Shown here: positions 5,096-14,801 of the stretch, piece after piece
Numbering within the stretch: position 1 is the first letter of the stretch
How the letters are laid out: every line of letters begins with the position of its first letter
Assembly (NCBI GenBank): GCA_947594085.1
Contig: CANQEB010000007.1
Span: forward strand, 1 to 21,540
Length of the DNA: 21,540 bases
Source of the DNA: an uncultured Lachnospiraceae bacterium
Lineage (GTDB): Bacteria > Bacillota > Clostridia > Lachnospirales > Lachnospiraceae
Reading direction: 5' to 3'
Translations under genes and position numbers: made by a program
Notes under the pieces: generated by a model
The model's database searches: none
The model's input: only the letters and a program-made list of their open reading frames with translations
What the model was told of the DNA's origin: nothing

Positions 5096-7012
5096 TCACT
5101 GTACCCAGACATTTAATTCCTTTGCCGCATCATTGATCGCAGCCTCAATAACCTTGTCCATATCGTAATATTTGTAAGAAGCGAGCCGTCCGCCAAATAT
5201 CACATTCTCCTCCTGTTCTGCTAAAGCGCGATATTTCTCATAGAGTGCATTGTTCTTCTCGTCATTCACCGGATAGTACGGATCGATCCCCGGCTTCCAC
5301 TCCATCGAATATTCCCTCGAAATAATGGAAAAATCCTTTGGATTCTCCTGCTCCGCCTCCGGCTCAAAATGCTTGTGCTCGATGACTCTCGTGTATGGCA
5401 CTTCACGGTCCGTATAATTGACCACTGCATTTCCCTGGTAATTCGCTTCCTCTACACGCTCTGTCTCAAAACGCACAGAACGGTATTCCAGATGTCCATA
5501 ACAGTAATCGAAATATTCATCGATCATGCCGGTGTAGACGACTTTGTCAAACATCTCCGAATGTTCCTTGCGATATTCAAAGAAATCCGTCTCCAGCATC
5601 ACATCGATATTGTTAAGGAGCCTCTCCATCATGCTTGTGTAGCCACCGCACGGTATTCCCTGATACAAATCATTGAAATAGTTGTTGTTGTAAGTGAAGC
5701 GCAGCGGAAGCCGCCGGATAATAAACGCCGGAAGATCCTTGCAGTCCCTTCCCCATTGTTTTTCCGTATAGCCCTTGACAAGCTTCTCATAGACATCACG
5801 GCCCACCAGGGACAATGCCTGCTCTTCAAGGTTCTTTGGCTCCTCTATGTGGAGATCCGCAATCTGCTCCGCAATCTTGGCTTGTACCTCCTGCGGTTTC
5901 TTCAAGCCCCAGAGCTTGGAAAAGGTGTTCATATTGAACGGCATATTGTAGAGCTCATCCTTATAGATCGCCAGCGGAGAATTGATGTAATGGTTGAACT
6001 CCGCAAATCGGTTCACATATCTCCATATTCTTTTGTCGCTCGTGTGGAAAATGTGTGCGCCGTATTTGTGCACCTGAATTCCGTCTACATCCTCCGTGTA
6101 TATATTGCCCCCAATATGGTTGCGCTTGTCAATCACCAGACAGCGCTTGCCGCGCCTCGTGAGTTCACGGGCAAACACGGCGCCATACAATCCTGCACCG
6201 ACAACCAAATAATCATACTTCCGCCCTTCCCGTCTGAGGCGTTCCCGTTTCTCCTCCTGTTTCTTGCGAACCTCTGCTTCCTGTTCCTCCGCATACGCGT
6301 CACAGACTTCCATGGATGGTCCGGCCATACGAATCTTGCCTTCATCCAGCCAGACTGCGTACTGGCAAAGATTTCTCACCGAGTCAATATTATGCGAGAC
6401 ATAGAGAAGCGTTGTCCCACCGGAGAGCATCCGCTGCATGCGCTCATTACACTTGCGGCGGAAACGCATATCTCCCACCTCAAGGACCTCGTCCACCACC
6501 AGAATATCCGGGTTCACAACTGTCGCAACTGCAAAACCGAGACGTGCCTTCATACCGGACGAAAAGTTCTTAACCGGAGAATCCAGGAATTTGCCGAGAT
6601 TCGAAAATTCCACAATCTCATCAAAATGCTCTTCCATAAATTCCCGTGAATGCCCGAGCACCATGCCGTTGAGGTAGATGTTTTCACGCGCGGTCAGATC
6701 CGGATCGATGCCGGCTCCGAGCTCAATCAAGGGCGCAATACGGCCGTGGATTTTGACCGTTCCCTCATATGGCTTCAAAATTCCGCTGATCGTCTTGAGC
6801 AGCGTGGATTTTCCGGAGCCATTAACGCCTACAAACCCCCAGGACTCACCCTTTTTTATCTTGAGATTGATATCCTGCAGTGCTATAAATTCCTGAAACA
6901 TCAGCTCATGCTTCATGAGCTTGATCGCGTATTCTTTGAGGTTATCTACTTTTTCATTTGCGAGATTAAAACGAATTTTTACATTCTCTACTTCAATTGC
7001 GTACTTAGCCAT
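5096..7012 (-). CDS. Fusion of polysaccharide-export ABC ATPase (Wzt/TagH-type) and UDP-galactopyranose mutase (Glf)
   Basis: One continuous 638-residue frame carries two complete enzymes. Residues 1-240 form an ABC ATPase of the Wzt/TagH group: Walker A GVNGSGKST (62-70), signature FSSGMKA (150-156), Walker B ILVVDEVLEVGD (170-181) and switch histidine SH (206-207). Residues 242-264 are a highly charged linker rich in Glu, Lys and Arg. Residues 265-638 form UDP-galactopyranose mutase: FAD-binding VVGAGLYG (270-277), KYGAHIFHTSDKRIW (316-330), GYTEKQWGRD (414-423), the RLPLRFTYNNNYF block, REYSMEW (566-572) and FGGRLASYKYYDMD near the end. The mutase converts UDP-galactopyranose to UDP-galactofuranose. 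The carbohydrate-binding C-terminal domain found in some Wzt proteins is absent, and Glf takes its place. The ATG at 7012 follows GGAGG by 5 nt. The permease gene is 30 bp upstream. Confidence 0.93.
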   Translation of the reverse strand: MAKYAIEVENVKIRFNLANEKVDNLKEYAIKLMKHELMFQEFIALQDINLKIKKGESWGFVGVNGSGKSTLLKTISGILKPYEGTVKIHGRIAPLIELGAGIDPDLTARENIYLNGMVLGHSREFMEEHFDEIVEFSNLGKFLDSPVKNFSSGMKARLGFAVATVVNPDILVVDEVLEVGDMRFRRKCNERMQRMLSGGTTLLYVSHNIDSVRNLCQYAVWLDEGKIRMAGPSMEVCDAYAEEQEAEVRKKQEEKRERLRREGRKYDYLVVGAGLYGAVFARELTRRGKRCLVIDKRNHIGGNIYTEDVDGIQVHKYGAHIFHTSDKRIWRYVNRFAEFNHYINSPLAIYKDELYNMPFNMNTFSKLWGLKKPQEVQAKIAEQIADLHIEEPKNLEEQALSLVGRDVYEKLVKGYTEKQWGRDCKDLPAFIIRRLPLRFTYNNNYFNDLYQGIPCGGYTSMMERLLNNIDVMLETDFFEYRKEHSEMFDKVVYTGMIDEYFDYCYGHLEYRSVRFETERVEEANYQGNAVVNYTDREVPYTRVIEHKHFEPEAEQENPKDFSIISREYSMEWKPGIDPYYPVNDEKNNALYEKYRALAEQEENVIFGGRLASYKYYDMDKVIEAAINDAAKELNVWVQ

Positions 7013-7042
7013 TCTCTCCTCCAAATGCGTTTTTTGTGGTGA

Positions 7043-9799: not shown

Positions 9800-12241
9800 C
9801 TATTTGAAATCCTTCGGGAAAAGGATTACAAAATCATTCTCATCATAGCGCTTCTTTCCCATTGAAATCTTCCGGAAGAATTTTCCGGAGCGCGTGATTG
9901 CCTTGCTCACAATGTCAATGACGCCGGAGATTGTCATCGGTGTCCCGTCCGGATTGCCGGCCGCGATCTTCTGACAGAACGCGTCATACGCCTCCTCCCC
10001 GATCACGTAATCCTGAGCATTCGCGTAAATCCGCCCGAATCCTGCCAACTCCTCTACCGTATACTCCGGCAGATAGATCTGCGCCGTGAACTTCATCGTG
10101 AAACGCGGATGCCGCATCAGCATTTCGTGAATGTACTGCTGCTCATCCTCAAGAATCATGATCAGGCCATCCGTCCGGAACTCCATCGCAGTCGTGAGCT
10201 GCTCGACGGTATTCGGCTCAAGATCGCCGGCCTCCTCGATGATCAGCGTGCCACCCGCGATCTTGGCGATTGTCGCCGCAATATCTTTGCGGTTCAGATC
10301 TGTCGCATAGATTCTCGCGATCTTCATCGTCTGGCTTCCCTTGTCCTGCGCGATCGCTTTTGCAAGACTCATCGCAAGTGTCGTCTTGCCAGAACCATGT
10401 GCGCCAAAGATCAAAATATTGCCGCTGCGGGAGGTCTTGTCGTCTCCCTTGGCCTCGGTCTGAAGAATCGCGTTGGCAATCTGATCCTCCAGTCCCTCTA
10501 CCTCTGTAAATCCACTGAACAATCCACGAAGATACTGTGGAATGGTCAGATACTCGTCATCATATTCCGCCTCATTTTCCTCGGAAAGAGCCTCCGCCTC
10601 CGTCGGCTCCCCGTCATCGTACTGCTCGCCCTCCGGCAACTCCTGGACACTGTCAGGCTGCTCTGCGTCCTCCTCTTCCGAGACTGCTTCTCCCAGTCTG
10701 CGGGAAATCTCCTCCGTAGGAATCCGCTTCGTCTTTCCGGAGAGCGCGTCTTGTCTGACGGCCTCCATCAATTCTTCGCGACTGTCTCCGATCCTTCGCG
10801 TCTTTCCGAGATCTTCCGGCTCCTCTGTATAAGTCGGAAGCGAACTCTTGTTTCTCAAAAGCTTCTCCGGATTGCTGGTGTACTGAAGCGCCTCTCGCTG
10901 CGTCTCTGTCAGCTCATCTGCCGCCGCTTCCGTCACACTCCGGATCGTCCTCTCCGGAGCAGGTTCTTCTTTGGAAGATCTGTCCGCATCCTCAGTGGCA
11001 GCTTCGTCTAACTCCTTCAACGGTGTCGCTTCGTCCGCGGCTCGTTTTCCGTCTCCCGACTCTGCCACGGCGCTCTCCCCGCCAGACTTCTTTGCGTCTT
11101 CCTGCGCAGGCTCTGCCTCCGCCTGATCGTCGTCTTCTCCGAGCACCGTGTCTACAACCTTTCTTCCCTGATCGCTCATGGAGAGCAGAATATCGTCGAT
11201 CGACAACTGGCCGGCAATCTGTTCTGACTCCTCCGGAACTTCTGTTTTTATCTTATGCGGGACGCCGTCTACGGAAGCAGGGATATCCTCCTCTATCGCA
11301 TCGTTGTGCTTCACAACCCCGGAAATGATATTCCGCATGCTCTTCGCTAGCTTCACCTGCAGATCCTTCGGATCCTCGTCCGCAGGCTCCGGCGTTCCCT
11401 TCTCCGGCATCACATACTGCCTGGTCTTTTCTATTTCGGGCACCTCCTCCGGCGCCTTCTCCATCTCAGCCTTGTGAGCCGCCACCTGGCCTGCGATCTC
11501 CTTCTCCGTCTCAGCCATAATCGACTCCGCGATGACTTCCCCGTCCGTGCTCTCGACATTCTGGATCACATTGTCCTCTTCTTGTTCCTCACTCGACGAC
11601 AATTCTTCCTCCAGATTTTCCTCAAGGCACTCTTCATAGATCTGCTGCTGCTTTGGTGTGAGCGCCGCGTAACGCTTCTTGAGCTCAAGTGCCTTGGTCA
11701 CATATTTGCCACTGTGGAACCAGAGCACCAGGTCATCGCACGCGGCAAGGCACTTCTGCATCTGACCGGACTGCTGATACAGCTTCGCGAGCTCATATGC
11801 CCACTTCTCCGTGTACTCCTGGCCAAGGTACTCTTCAAGGATCGCGATCAACTCCTCTACTGAGCTTCCCCTTCCTTTGTAGATCTTATACTTAAGAATG
11901 TACCGGTTGTTATCGTGTGGCGCCGCCTGTACATACTCCGTATAATACTCGATCGCTTCATCGTACTGCTGCAGCTCGGTCGTCACCTCGATCAGCCGAT
12001 ACAATACCGTCCGCCCAACCGGCGAGCGTCTATATGCCCGGATCAGGATATTCTTGCTGTCCTCCAGCCTGCCTGACGCCTCATAGATCTCGCTGACAAG
12101 ACAGAGTGTGCGGATATTACGCACTCTTCTCCAGTCAATCGAATCAGCAAGATTGGCTGCCTCATTATAATTTCCCTGATCTACGAGTTTGTCAATTTCC
12201 TCCAGTTTGAGATTGTATTCATATTTATCCAACTCATCCAC
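9800..12241 (-). CDS. TPR-repeat protein with acidic linker and C-terminal AAA (CbbX/SpoVK-like) ATPase domain
   Basis: An 813-residue protein in three parts. Residues 1-200 are helical repeats of TPR type (GNYNEAANLAD, GRLEDSKNIL, QQYDEAIEYYTEYV). Residues about 205-565 are a low-complexity region rich in Glu, Asp and Ala, carrying three short KTRxI-like motifs (about 272, 480 and 503). Residues 575-790 are an ATPase: Walker A GAHGSGKTT (613-621), a degenerate Walker B LIIEEAG (666-672) with Glu where the first Asp is expected, and a YLPEYTVEEL block resembling CbbX/SpoVK-type AAA proteins. No signal peptide or membrane segment is visible. It may be a scaffold or remodelling ATPase; the function is unknown. 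The start is GTG at 12241; no ATG exists in frame and the ribosome site is weak, so the start is less certain than the rest. Confidence 0.85.
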   Translation of the reverse strand: MDELDKYEYNLKLEEIDKLVDQGNYNEAANLADSIDWRRVRNIRTLCLVSEIYEASGRLEDSKNILIRAYRRSPVGRTVLYRLIEVTTELQQYDEAIEYYTEYVQAAPHDNNRYILKYKIYKGRGSSVEELIAILEEYLGQEYTEKWAYELAKLYQQSGQMQKCLAACDDLVLWFHSGKYVTKALELKKRYAALTPKQQQIYEECLEENLEEELSSSEEQEEDNVIQNVESTDGEVIAESIMAETEKEIAGQVAAHKAEMEKAPEEVPEIEKTRQYVMPEKGTPEPADEDPKDLQVKLAKSMRNIISGVVKHNDAIEEDIPASVDGVPHKIKTEVPEESEQIAGQLSIDDILLSMSDQGRKVVDTVLGEDDDQAEAEPAQEDAKKSGGESAVAESGDGKRAADEATPLKELDEAATEDADRSSKEEPAPERTIRSVTEAAADELTETQREALQYTSNPEKLLRNKSSLPTYTEEPEDLGKTRRIGDSREELMEAVRQDALSGKTKRIPTEEISRRLGEAVSEEEDAEQPDSVQELPEGEQYDDGEPTEAEALSEENEAEYDDEYLTIPQYLRGLFSGFTEVEGLEDQIANAILQTEAKGDDKTSRSGNILIFGAHGSGKTTLAMSLAKAIAQDKGSQTMKIARIYATDLNRKDIAATIAKIAGGTLIIEEAGDLEPNTVEQLTTAMEFRTDGLIMILEDEQQYIHEMLMRHPRFTMKFTAQIYLPEYTVEELAGFGRIYANAQDYVIGEEAYDAFCQKIAAGNPDGTPMTISGVIDIVSKAITRSGKFFRKISMGKKRYDENDFVILFPKDFK

Positions 12242-12306
12242 CCCGCCATTGTTTCCGGCATTTGCCTTATGATCTGCATTACTTATTTATATTACATATT
12301 TTTTTA

Positions 12307-12335
12307 AGTGTACCATACCTGCATTTTGTTGTCAA
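12307..12335 (-). promoter_or_regulatory. Promoter of the TPR/AAA gene
   Basis: On the minus strand a perfect TTGACA (12330-12335), 17-bp spacer and TACACT (12307-12312) with a TG element (TGG before the -10). It lies just past the terminator of the structured RNA, so the AAA gene has its own promoter and a leader of about 60 nt. The same TTGACA-17-TGnTACACT layout recurs at 15642-15670. Confidence 0.8.
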
Positions 12336-12367
12336 AACTAACCTGTCGAAAATTGACGTTTTTGCAC

Positions 12368-12406
12368 AAAAAAAGGAGATATTTTGTTTTTTTAATATCT
12401 CCTTTT
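12368..12406 (-). terminator. Intrinsic terminator ending the structured RNA
   Basis: A perfect 13-bp inverted repeat (12371-12383 with 12394-12406, arms AAAAGGAGATATT/AATATCTCCTTTT) with a 10-nt loop. On the minus strand the stem runs straight into seven consecutive T residues (12374-12368, four of them in the stem). On the plus strand it is also followed by a T-rich stretch, but no plus-strand gene would use it. Confidence 0.8.
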
Positions 12407-12637
12407 GGTCTTTTATTAAATTTTTATTCAGTTTTTTTATTTATATTCTTGAATGATATTGGAGAGTGTCTTTCCTGTTTTGAATTATAAAAGAAGTCTT
12501 TTTCTTTTATAACCATGTGGTTTTTATTTATTCTTCGAACCTGCGAGTCCGATCTTCTTCGTTCTACCCGGATAAATGTTCTCTATCAGCAGATTCGTTC
12601 TACTCTCCAATGGATCGTTTTCATACGATTATTTGAA

Positions 12638-12718
12638 TCAATTCTGATAGAGGTCTTTTTTACAGGAAACATTTATCCAACCACATGTATCAATATACAT
12701 ATGTGAGACTGTGTCCAT
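12638..12718 (-). CDS. Possible 26-codon small ORF inside the structured RNA
   Basis: A perfect AGGAGG (12733-12728) lies 9 nt before an ATG at 12718-12716. The frame runs 26 codons (MDTVSHMYIDTCGWINVSCK, then KDLYQN) to TGA at 12640-12638. The peptide has two cysteines (positions 12 and 19), is not strongly hydrophobic, and is unlike type I toxins or amino-acid-rich attenuator peptides. It could be translated or could be coincidental within a structured RNA. The start codon lies in a 9-nt segment (12714-12722) that is perfectly complementary to 12606-12614. Confidence 0.3.
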   Translation of the reverse strand: MDTVSHMYIDTCGWINVSCKKDLYQN

Positions 12719-12799
12719 TGGAATCGACCTCCTGTCCTTTTGTAATCTTCTATAGGTATTTAATCTATAGGAACAACAAATGTTTTTGTTGATGACTGT

Positions 12800-12828
12800 A
12801 TCTTATCACAACCCTCCTTATTTGTCAA
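12800..12828 (-). promoter_or_regulatory. Strong promoter of the structured RNA
   Basis: On the minus strand a perfect TTGACA (12823-12828), 17-bp spacer and TAAGAT (12800-12805), with TG one base upstream of the -10. The predicted +1 is near 12793, directly before a 7-bp hairpin. It lies 114 bp past the stop of the LicD-fusion gene, within AT-rich DNA holding no other recognisable element. Confidence 0.8.
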
Positions 12829-12941
12829 CACTATTTTTTATTTTTCGGAAATTATTTTTACCACTATTGTTCTATTTTTCTATTTTTTATTAATTTAATA
12901 TATTTTACATAAATTTCAGATTATTTGCTCAACAGGGACAT

Positions 12942-14801
12942 TTAGCGATAATCCCGACAGCGGTAATGAGAATATTCACCCAGATCCGTCACTACGATGC
13001 TGTGGCTCGTCTGCCGCTCACTGACCGGAAGCATCTGCATGTAATCTCCGTACAGCCATGTCAGGTACTTGTCATACTCCTTCGGGACAGGGAACTTATA
13101 CCCCTCGAAATCCACGTAGACCGCTTCATCGAGCCACGCCTTCGGGAACGGCCCTCGCTTCAGGTTGCGCCCCATGCCGTCGTACAGATACTCGCTCTTC
13201 CTGTGCTGAAACAGTCGCAGCATTCTCGCCTGGAGCCACTCCGCCCACGACATCGGGATGAATCTTTTTATCCGATTGAGCACCGCGCACACATGGGGAT
13301 GTTTGCCACCGCTGATTATGTTCGTATTACCCCATTTGCGGAACACGAGCGCGCGCCCCAGGATCGTTCCATAGAGATGCAGCTTCTGGGACCATTTGTG
13401 GTTGGCCGTCTTATCGTGTGCCAGAATATCGAAGAAAATTCCGTTATGCATATCCAAGAACTTTGCGGTGAACAATGTCGAAAACATCGTGTTGTTGATG
13501 CGCAGCTTCGCAAACGCATTGTGATTGCCCTCCTCTGTGGAAGGAATCTGCAGGAAAATATTGTCCGGAACCTCGTCCTGCACAATCTCCATAAAATGAT
13601 CATAATCCTCGCGAAGCATCATGACGTCTGCATCATCGTCCCAGGGAATAAACCCGTGATGGCGGATTGCCCCGAGCAGCGTACCGCCGGCCAAAAAATA
13701 TTTGATCCCGTGCTTTTTGCATATCCGATCGATCTCCAGAAGATAACCGAGCAGAAGCTGTTGAACTGCCGTCAGTTTCCCCAGATAGGTGTTGTCAAAG
13801 ATAAAGGTCCCTTTCTGCTGCTGCATGCTCTTGACCAGCATAATCAGCCCGTCTTCCAGCGAAACCTTCGATGAAAACTTGTTTCTCGAGATCAGCTGCG
13901 GATTCAGCAAAATCCCTGTCTCGCCATCCTTTTTCTCACTCCACCGCAGCCCGATCCGACATTGATCCGGAAAGTTTCGATACAGCCTTGTGACCATTTC
14001 ACTCCTGGATGCGTTTGACGCCTTTCCGATCACATTGAAAATTTTGTTACTCTCACAAGTGGCAAGCATAAACTGAATCGCGGTCAGCACATCGTGAATG
14101 TTGACGTAAGAACTCTGCTCTGCACTGAACTCCAGCGTATCCTCCCGGCCTTCCGCGACCATGCGAGCCAGCCGATATGCATTGTGTTCCATGACATCAA
14201 TGTAGGCGCCAAGAATCAGACCGGTACGCAAAATATGATATTTGATATGGGCATCCCGTGCACAGCTTACCACAATGCTCTCAAGCGCCTGCAAAAAATA
14301 CTGCGTCTCAAATCCCTGCCCGCAAGGGTCCGTCTCACCTGCCTCATACTCAGATGCCGCGAACCCGTGTGGCAACCGTCCATACACTCTGCCGTCCGAC
14401 AAAAGAAGGATCTTTTCGCGCGCATATCCGGCCGCCGTCTGTGCGACCTCAAAGAAATGCGCCAGATATTCTATCTCCTCTTCCACGGTAAAAGAAACCT
14501 CGCGGCAGCAGTATCCTGTCAAGATCACATAGTCTGCCTCCTCCGGCGAAAAATCAGGCCCGGCGTAATGCTTGATCGCCCCGTCCATTGACATGTGTGT
14601 CACACTTAGCCCTACACTATAATTGTCATTCCAGGCCTCGAAGGACCAGGCCACTGCCTTCGTCAGAGAACTTTTCTCGCCAATCAGCAGTATTTTTTTC
14701 CCTCTGAAGCTCTCTTCATTCAGATATTTGGACCTGACAGCCGCCTGTGCCCAGTCAAGTTGAAACTCATTCAGCCTGTCTCGCAAACTCTTTTTTGACA
14801 T
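12942..14801 (-). CDS. Fusion of a degenerate SDR-like domain and a LicD family phosphotransferase
   Basis: A 619-residue protein with two parts. Residues about 35-325 look like an NAD-dependent epimerase fold (KILLIGEKSS, ILLLSDGRVYGRLP, YHILRTGLILG, YVNIHDVLTAI, IFNVIGKASN), but the glycine-rich NAD motif is missing and the Tyr at 168 has Ala four residues later instead of Lys. Residues about 345-610 are a LicD domain: YFLAGGTLLGAIRHHGFIPWDDDADV (368-393) is the nucleotidyltransferase-like core with its acidic cluster, followed by KLRINNT and GIFFDILAHD. LicD proteins transfer phosphocholine or similar phospho-substituents to surface polysaccharides and teichoic acids. The SDR part is probably structural or substrate-recognising. 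The gene follows a small SDR-like gene by 25 bp and is followed by AT-rich DNA without a clear terminator. Confidence 0.88.
   Translation of the reverse strand: MSKKSLRDRLNEFQLDWAQAAVRSKYLNEESFRGKKILLIGEKSSLTKAVAWSFEAWNDNYSVGLSVTHMSMDGAIKHYAGPDFSPEEADYVILTGYCCREVSFTVEEEIEYLAHFFEVAQTAAGYAREKILLLSDGRVYGRLPHGFAASEYEAGETDPCGQGFETQYFLQALESIVVSCARDAHIKYHILRTGLILGAYIDVMEHNAYRLARMVAEGREDTLEFSAEQSSYVNIHDVLTAIQFMLATCESNKIFNVIGKASNASRSEMVTRLYRNFPDQCRIGLRWSEKKDGETGILLNPQLISRNKFSSKVSLEDGLIMLVKSMQQQKGTFIFDNTYLGKLTAVQQLLLGYLLEIDRICKKHGIKYFLAGGTLLGAIRHHGFIPWDDDADVMMLREDYDHFMEIVQDEVPDNIFLQIPSTEEGNHNAFAKLRINNTMFSTLFTAKFLDMHNGIFFDILAHDKTANHKWSQKLHLYGTILGRALVFRKWGNTNIISGGKHPHVCAVLNRIKRFIPMSWAEWLQARMLRLFQHRKSEYLYDGMGRNLKRGPFPKAWLDEAVYVDFEGYKFPVPKEYDKYLTWLYGDYMQMLPVSERQTSHSIVVTDLGEYSHYRCRDYR

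Follow-up and report, generated by a model that had tools for sequence, protein, structure and literature searches.

A covarying RNA family of Lachnospiraceae, absent from Rfam 15, whose short reading frame lies within its core helices

The window analysed here (i.e. the whole 21,540-nt stretch of Lachnospiraceae DNA) carries on its minus strand a predicted gene for a long RNA, which almost certainly represents a genuine RNA family with covarying structure that Rfam 15 lacks. Two of its features were overlooked in the original prediction: a short open reading frame (ORF) preceded by a Shine–Dalgarno (SD) sequence, and the complementarity of the RNA 3' end to two internal stretches, one of which lies in the ORF. 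Our best explanation, to which we give about an even chance, is a chromosomal, autonomous, dual-function structured RNA that is gated by translation. In its length and its extensive covarying structure, the window RNA appears to resemble the large ornate structured RNAs.

The RNA gene and its predicted signals

The gene, its putative signals and its local hairpins are as follows:

12371..12793, minus strand: RNA gene, from the predicted 5' end to the end of the terminator stem (∼423 nt plus a T-run; both ends predicted)
12800..12828, minus strand: extended −10 promoter TTGACA-17-TGnTAAGAT, with TG preceding the −10
12774..12791, minus strand: 5' hairpin CAACAAA/TTTGTTG, 7 bp
12750..12770, minus strand: CTATAG...CTATAG hairpin
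12485..12512, minus strand: 11-bp hairpin
12371..12406, minus strand: intrinsic terminator-like hairpin with a 13-bp stem, followed by a T-run

The near-consensus extended promoter of the original prediction is found as described (12828–12800, minus strand), and the 5' hairpin, the 11-bp hairpin and the 13-bp terminator have complementary arms where it had placed them. Promoter matches of this type are common by chance (three in the 1.6-kb region versus 4.6 ± 2.4 in shuffles). TTGACA occurs 60–160 nt upstream of the ORF in 39 of the 40 same-genus loci (L034 lacks it), and the promoter, SD and core can be aligned across these 40 loci. A consensus terminator scan missed the window terminator because its 10-nt loop exceeds the limit of 8 used there; a separate scan listed it. 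Longer relatives have terminator-like sites up to ∼1.2 kb from the 5' end (heuristic scan, with a site in 32/42 loci). The MFE of the window RNA is −98.1 kcal/mol (z −5.99), and none of 100 shuffles folds equally well. Promoter and terminator-like sites travel with the RNA while its neighbours vary, in line with the stand-alone gene that had been proposed. These comparisons support an RNA gene that is probably autonomous, with a promoter and a terminator of its own.

The string GACGAGAAA, a hairpin loop by eye, occurs upstream of the ORF in 22/47 rows outside the genus and 0/40 inside it, and the loop-like string G[TC][AG]AAGAA occurs downstream of the core in 25/40 genus rows and 37/47 other rows; both were counted by pattern alone, without a chance control.

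Distribution in Lachnospiraceae

Of 194 genomes searched by DNA similarity, 47 belong to the same genus, and 42 of these, its own genome included, carry the element. Twelve further DNA matches in other genera were short and of low complexity by eye, and were not counted. The RNA is present in Parablautia sp. Marseille-Q6255 and in bacterium 1XD42-54. The whole core is found in 40 same-genus loci, while two more (L041 and L042) are cut by contig ends and were left out of all genus counts. The five same-genus genomes that lack a DNA match gave no match either to R1, a covariance model built on the genus, which is a weak negative because two genomes with copies cut by contig ends also gave none.

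R1 finds four loci that had been fetched by a pattern running from the SD to TCCTG (L050 of Robinsoniella peoriensis, L049, L058 and L068), with E-values from 4e-18 to 3.5e-6, and matches 14/397 Lachnospiraceae genomes. Loci L047, L054, L063, L077 and L086 look like chance among the 48 genome-contig pattern matches, and the four viral-contig matches of the first pattern scan have unrelated reading frames. A second model, R2, made from eight R1-found loci outside the genus, matches 74/397 Lachnospiraceae genomes in 64/334 genera, and recovers the window copy at E 3.3e-8; a third, R3, made from 41 rows with none from the same-genus loci L001–L042, matches 54/240 family genomes at E ≤ 0.001 in 53/239 genera and the window at 9.7e-12. 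The E-values of R2 and R3 are rough because calibration was short, the rows descend from R1 hits and the samples overlap. Relatives were found in the same genus by DNA and in other Lachnospiraceae genera by model, and roughly one in five sampled genera of the family has the RNA. A sample of the order gave matches in 23/392 genomes, 22 in Lachnospiraceae and one, weak, outside (E 0.003), and a sample of the class gave a match in 1/245, the window's own; the proportion of genomes from outside Lachnospiraceae in these samples is established only in part. A set of 34 loci fitted to R1 (A2) misplaced other genera by eye and was dropped.

Two genomes (G203 and G234) each have two model matches. The RNA may be duplicated in them, or a contig end may split one copy; the second match in G234 begins at base 1 of a contig.

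A covariance search of Rfam 15 returned no matches for the window RNA. The region 12240–12960, searched at E up to 10, gave three matches (STnc370, tp2 and sR16; best E 2.1), and 13 related loci, searched at E up to 1, gave another three (mir-5, Phe_leader and mir-451; best E 0.12), all below gathering and rejected. The original prediction had recognised no known RNA family, and Rfam 15 agrees with it at gathering level for the window, the region and the 13 related loci. No description of the window RNA was found in the literature within reach, beyond which lay most subscription papers, preprints and supplements.

Core helices and compensatory changes

The proposed core consists of five helices:

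12679..12687 (5' strand) and 12514..12522 (3' strand), minus strand: P1, with compensatory changes
12668..12678 (5' strand) and 12570..12580 (3' strand), minus strand: P2, with compensatory changes
12644..12652 (5' strand) and 12581..12589 (3' strand), minus strand: P3, with compensatory changes
12635..12639 (5' strand) and 12592..12596 (3' strand), minus strand: P4, with both-side changes in 1/5 pairs (genus)
12614..12629, minus strand: P5 hairpin ATCGT/ACGAT, with both-side changes in 1/5 pairs

The nested stems of 9, 11 and 9 bp that had been predicted (P1, P2 and P3) are present with complementary arms, and all three show compensatory changes among homologues. P1–P3 rest on this comparison rather than on the MFE fold, because the MFE fold of the window RNA does not contain them; with P1–P5 enforced, the fold has −94.5 kcal/mol, pseudoknots uncounted.

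For P2–P5 in the 40 same-genus loci, 95.6% of cells pair, versus 31–41% in slid controls, a comparison in which the structure is favoured over its slid versions because it derives from one of the tested sequences. Changes on both sides occur in 13/29 pairs (6.3 in shuffles), mostly in P2 (5/10 pairs) and P3 (6/9), whereas P4 and P5 contribute a single pair apiece; further pair types show no excess (24 versus 23.5 in shuffles). Outside the genus set, 94.3% of cells pair in helices A, P2 and P4 of 41 loci (A5), versus 28–39% in slid controls, and both-side changes occur in 16/21 pairs (9.1 in shuffles); the A5 alignment was fitted to the covariance model and is biased towards the model structure.

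The 3' strand of P1 lies at a variable distance from the 5' strand. In 24 of the 40 same-genus loci, the own 5' strand has an exact downstream complement of 8 nt; another 10 loci have one of 7 nt and three have one of 6 nt, and L005, L006 and L024 have none. Control 5' strands differing at T/C of TGYGG match at 8 nt in 12/400 trials, compared with 24/40 for the own strands; the control is weak at 6 nt (103/400 trials match), and some short or distant matches (e.g. in L019) may be chance.

A short ORF with a conserved frame

Two putative translation elements lie upstream of and within the core:

12726..12733, minus strand: Shine–Dalgarno sequence AGGAGGTC
12638..12718, minus strand: 26-codon ORF MDTVSHMYIDTCGWINVSCKKDLYQN plus stop

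An ORF of 25–27 codons follows the SD in all 40 same-genus loci and reads about [MV]DTVSH...CG.INVSC.KDL. In the R2 loci L109–L150, ATG, GTG or TTG occurs 15–17 nt into the match in 42/42, the script having taken the start codon nearest position 16. Across 87 rows (86 places, as L101 and L135 are one place), the first codon is ATG in 51, GTG in 21, TTG in 15 and CTG in none, and the second is GAC or GAT (Asp) in 77. The ORF has 24–36 codons in 81/87 loci; the shorter ones have 18 (L144 and L145), 15 (L148 and L149), three (L150) and two codons (L107). L107 and L101 were left out of A3.

The frame is conserved along with the start. Between the start and the P1/A anchor, the distance takes the values 30, 33 and 36 in genus loci (multiples of three in 40/40) and is a multiple of three in 43/46 other loci, and the distance from the start to TTCC is in frame in 36/36 genus loci and 38/44 others (loci with a recognised anchor only). 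By contrast, two spacings outside the ORF (GACC to GGAG and GGAG to the next anchor) occur in all three frame classes. Length changes inside the ORF go by threes and those outside do not, which supports a genuine ORF and frame.

The pN/pS ratio is 0.65 in frame versus 0.80 and 0.73 in the other frames; from codon 11 to the end it is 0.58 versus 0.52 and 0.63, so that the in-frame value is not the lowest, and one frame of a noncoding control gives 0.54. These values hint only weakly at amino-acid selection. QY is found in 29 of 30 peptides hand-picked for alignment, and these 30 diverge widely outside the stem-forming stretch. In our reading, the ORF is very probably translated, and translation appears to be maintained while the peptide sequence is kept loosely.

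These data bear on two other explanations. The first, which we consider unlikely, is that a small peptide is the product and the RNA its mRNA, the surrounding fold being regulatory. Conservation of the SD, start codon and frame, together with the common Asp at the second codon, would fit such a message; the wide variation of the aligned peptides, the weak amino-acid selection and the six of 87 loci that retain the RNA despite a broken or truncated ORF argue against it. The second, distinctly unlikely, is a purely noncoding large structured RNA in which what looks like an ORF is a by-product of the fold or a mere ribosome-binding site. Strong covariation with weak amino-acid selection is consistent with it, as are L107 and L150, which retain the RNA without a usable ORF. 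It does not account for length changes by threes inside the ORF but not outside, nor for a first start-codon position that is only A, G or T in 87/87 rows. A translation-gated RNA with two functions is the reading that we prefer to both.

L107 and L150 keep the RNA core motifs despite their broken ORFs, and L107 matches R3 at E 1.4e-15. In another locus, L108, the family SD/start context (reverse strand, start codon at position 1524) precedes an ORF of only 10 codons, after which a T-run hairpin can be made out by eye; it may be a degenerate or miniature copy, or chance (R3 E 0.049).

Proposed pairing of the 3' end and of the SD

The 3' end of the RNA is complementary to the following internal stretches:

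12662..12669, minus strand: helix C, 5' strand TTTCCTGT, inside the ORF
12471..12478, minus strand: helix C, 3' strand ACAGGAAA
12603..12611, minus strand: helix D, 5' strand ATTGGAGAG, in the internal loop between P5 and P4
12458..12466, minus strand: helix D, 3' strand CTCTCCAAT

The 3' strands of both helices sit just ahead of the terminator region. Variants of the C core (ATTGGAG, ATCGGAG, ATCAGAG, TTCGGAG, CCTGGAG and ACCGAAG) are each paired with their own complement, and the D-core variants TTCCTG and TTCCCG likewise occur with theirs. Own C and D partners, in exact Watson–Crick pairing and in order, are found in 37/74 loci, 13 of the 87 loci having been left out for lack of a recognised core. 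Swap controls gave 0/618 with both cores swapped and 15/1227 with D alone swapped, and 11 of 19 core combinations have no own C/D match. A search allowing G-U pairs was noisy and was superseded by this exact matching with swaps. P1, C and D cross along the RNA, which implies a multiple pseudoknot or a set of alternatives; the comparisons support a multi-pseudoknot structure as the probable arrangement.

The SD appears to have a partner as well. In the MFE fold, its GGAGGTC (12726–12732) pairs with 12649–12655 (GACCUCU, in the ORF), and this pairing covaries in relatives (GGUC:GACC and GGCUU:AAGCC). Over 84 loci, 0/1000 shuffles reach the observed covariation at two positions, while the third is not above shuffles; distinct pairs outside the genus are not significant (60 and 300 of 1000 shuffles reach the value). 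Comparison of sequences thus gives moderate support to an interaction between the SD and the ORF end.

In 27/30 loci outside the genus, the 3' D strand starts with an extra C before CTCC or a variant. The base opposite this C in helix D is A, C or T, so no pair is possible there. CCUCC matches the SD, which at most suggests an alternative partner for the 3' D strand.

Long-range complementarity of this kind is known from hok-type type I toxin mRNAs, in which complementarity between the 3' end and the coding region at the 5' side locks the message. The window RNA shares the 3'-to-coding-region complementarity and a possible occlusion of the SD, as would a type I toxin mRNA or a comparable message under antitoxin control that 5'–3' pairing locks. 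However, its peptides are polar (mean GRAVY −0.37, n = 81, range −1.07 to 0.61; highest 15-residue window 1.47) rather than of the short hydrophobic membrane type, and its core is long and covarying, which makes this explanation improbable.

Genomic neighbourhood

On the downstream side, the window contains:

9800..12241, minus strand: TPR protein gene, with a homologue downstream of the RNA in many relatives
12307..12335, minus strand: promoter-like site TTGACA-17-TACACT ahead of the TPR gene

The original prediction had set the RNA between glycopolymer genes, which holds upstream, where a LicD gene lies, and fails downstream, where the neighbour is the TPR protein gene. It had also given the downstream gene a promoter of its own, and a promoter-like site is indeed located past the terminator (12335–12307). 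In L050, a similar promoter-like string lies ahead of the TPR homologue, by eye.

A TPR homologue lies downstream on the same strand in 32/62 loci compared, including the Robinsoniella-like L109, and the RNA stands <2 kb before the TPR gene, on its strand, in 13/24 R3 matches (in genomes also searched for the TPR gene). These adjacencies are what a leader or attenuator of the TPR gene would give, a very improbable explanation given that a terminator-like hairpin and a promoter-like site separate the two in the window, that the TPR gene is a core gene (115/120 family genomes) with a clear R2 match to the RNA in only 6/30 TPR loci with up to 1.5 kb upstream, and that the position is not constant, the RNA standing beside other neighbours in other loci. 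R3, applied to 25 of those 30 loci, found only L153 (already known) plus one match at E 0.37. The adjacency of the RNA and the TPR gene seems to be a matter of inherited gene order. On the upstream side, 14/62 loci have an aconitase-family gene.

A match to a mobile-element remnant had been named as potential counter-evidence; comparing the window sequence with 72,556 plasmid and 50,697 phage records gave no match. The sole family match among viral contigs is L182 (1–1860, a provirus of the viral collection), which starts exactly at the ORF start codon and carries the 3' part of the RNA; an opposite-strand ORF after this part matches Pfam Phage_integrase (E 6e-7). The provirus edge adjoins the RNA gene, and the phage seems to sit just 3' of it.

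Elsewhere in the window (5096–7024), a single ORF has matches to an ABC transporter ATPase domain as well as to UDP-galactopyranose mutase and looks like a fusion.

A possible mechanism

Under the preferred reading of a translation-gated, dual-function RNA, the transcript would be made from its own promoter and end at its own terminator. The codons of the ORF would double as the 5' sides of helices P1, P2 and C, and in other genera of helix A too. When the RNA is folded, its 3' end would dock on the ORF (helix C) and on the internal loop (helix D), and the SD could pair with codons near the ORF end, giving low initiation. Once loaded, a ribosome would melt helices P1, P2 and C. Each of these helices, like the SD pairing, involves nucleotides of the ORF or the SD, so that a translating ribosome must open it; since several long-range helices draw their 5' strands from the ORF, translation and the fold should be mutually exclusive. 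The RNA would then toggle between folded and translated forms, which could make it responsive to translation initiation; downstream action would come from the folded form, from the peptide or from both. Transcription, translation, mutual exclusion in vivo, use as a switch, and any target, partner or downstream action are inferences.

A bolder proposal, which we put forward tentatively and hold to be somewhat unlikely, is that the RNA represents a new class of translation-gated large RNA, a multi-pseudoknot RNA whose own ORF is its folding core. Every initiating ribosome would erase the functional fold, the RNA would be a direct sensor of translation initiation, and the undocked 3' CCUCC would be free to seize its own or other SD sequences.

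Comparison with known systems

RNAIII (Staphylococcus), SR1 (Bacillus), SgrS and VcdRP are, as is predicted for the window RNA, free-standing transcripts that combine a short ORF with an RNA part. In these four, the coding and pairing parts are largely separate, whereas the window ORF supplies strands of core helices and the RNA has no Rfam 15 match. VcdRP harbours a 29-residue protein (PMC8672173) and SR1 encodes SR1P (PMC8501984). Short conserved ORFs in or beside conserved RNA structure are also found in odc1-type uORF motifs, the odc1 motif being described as a control element of the main ORF in the same mRNA (PMC8632094). The window RNA differs from them in having its own terminator-like hairpin and differing neighbours.

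OLE, ROOL, GOLLD and raiA RNA (ModT) share with the window RNA a large size and an elaborate conserved fold. All four are free-standing genes, and large structured RNAs form a small group in bacteria. Even some of the best-studied ones have no known biochemical role, OLE being described as an RNA of unknown precise biochemical function. In contrast to these RNAs, the window RNA has no Rfam 15 match, carries an embedded ORF with a conserved frame, and belongs to a family so far found almost wholly in one bacterial family.

In brief, this RNA, which Rfam 15 does not contain, combines an elaborate fold with a short ORF and occurs in roughly one in five of the genera sampled from a major gut family. 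If translation and folding truly exclude each other, an RNA-structure readout of ribosome activity would be directly testable in common commensals.
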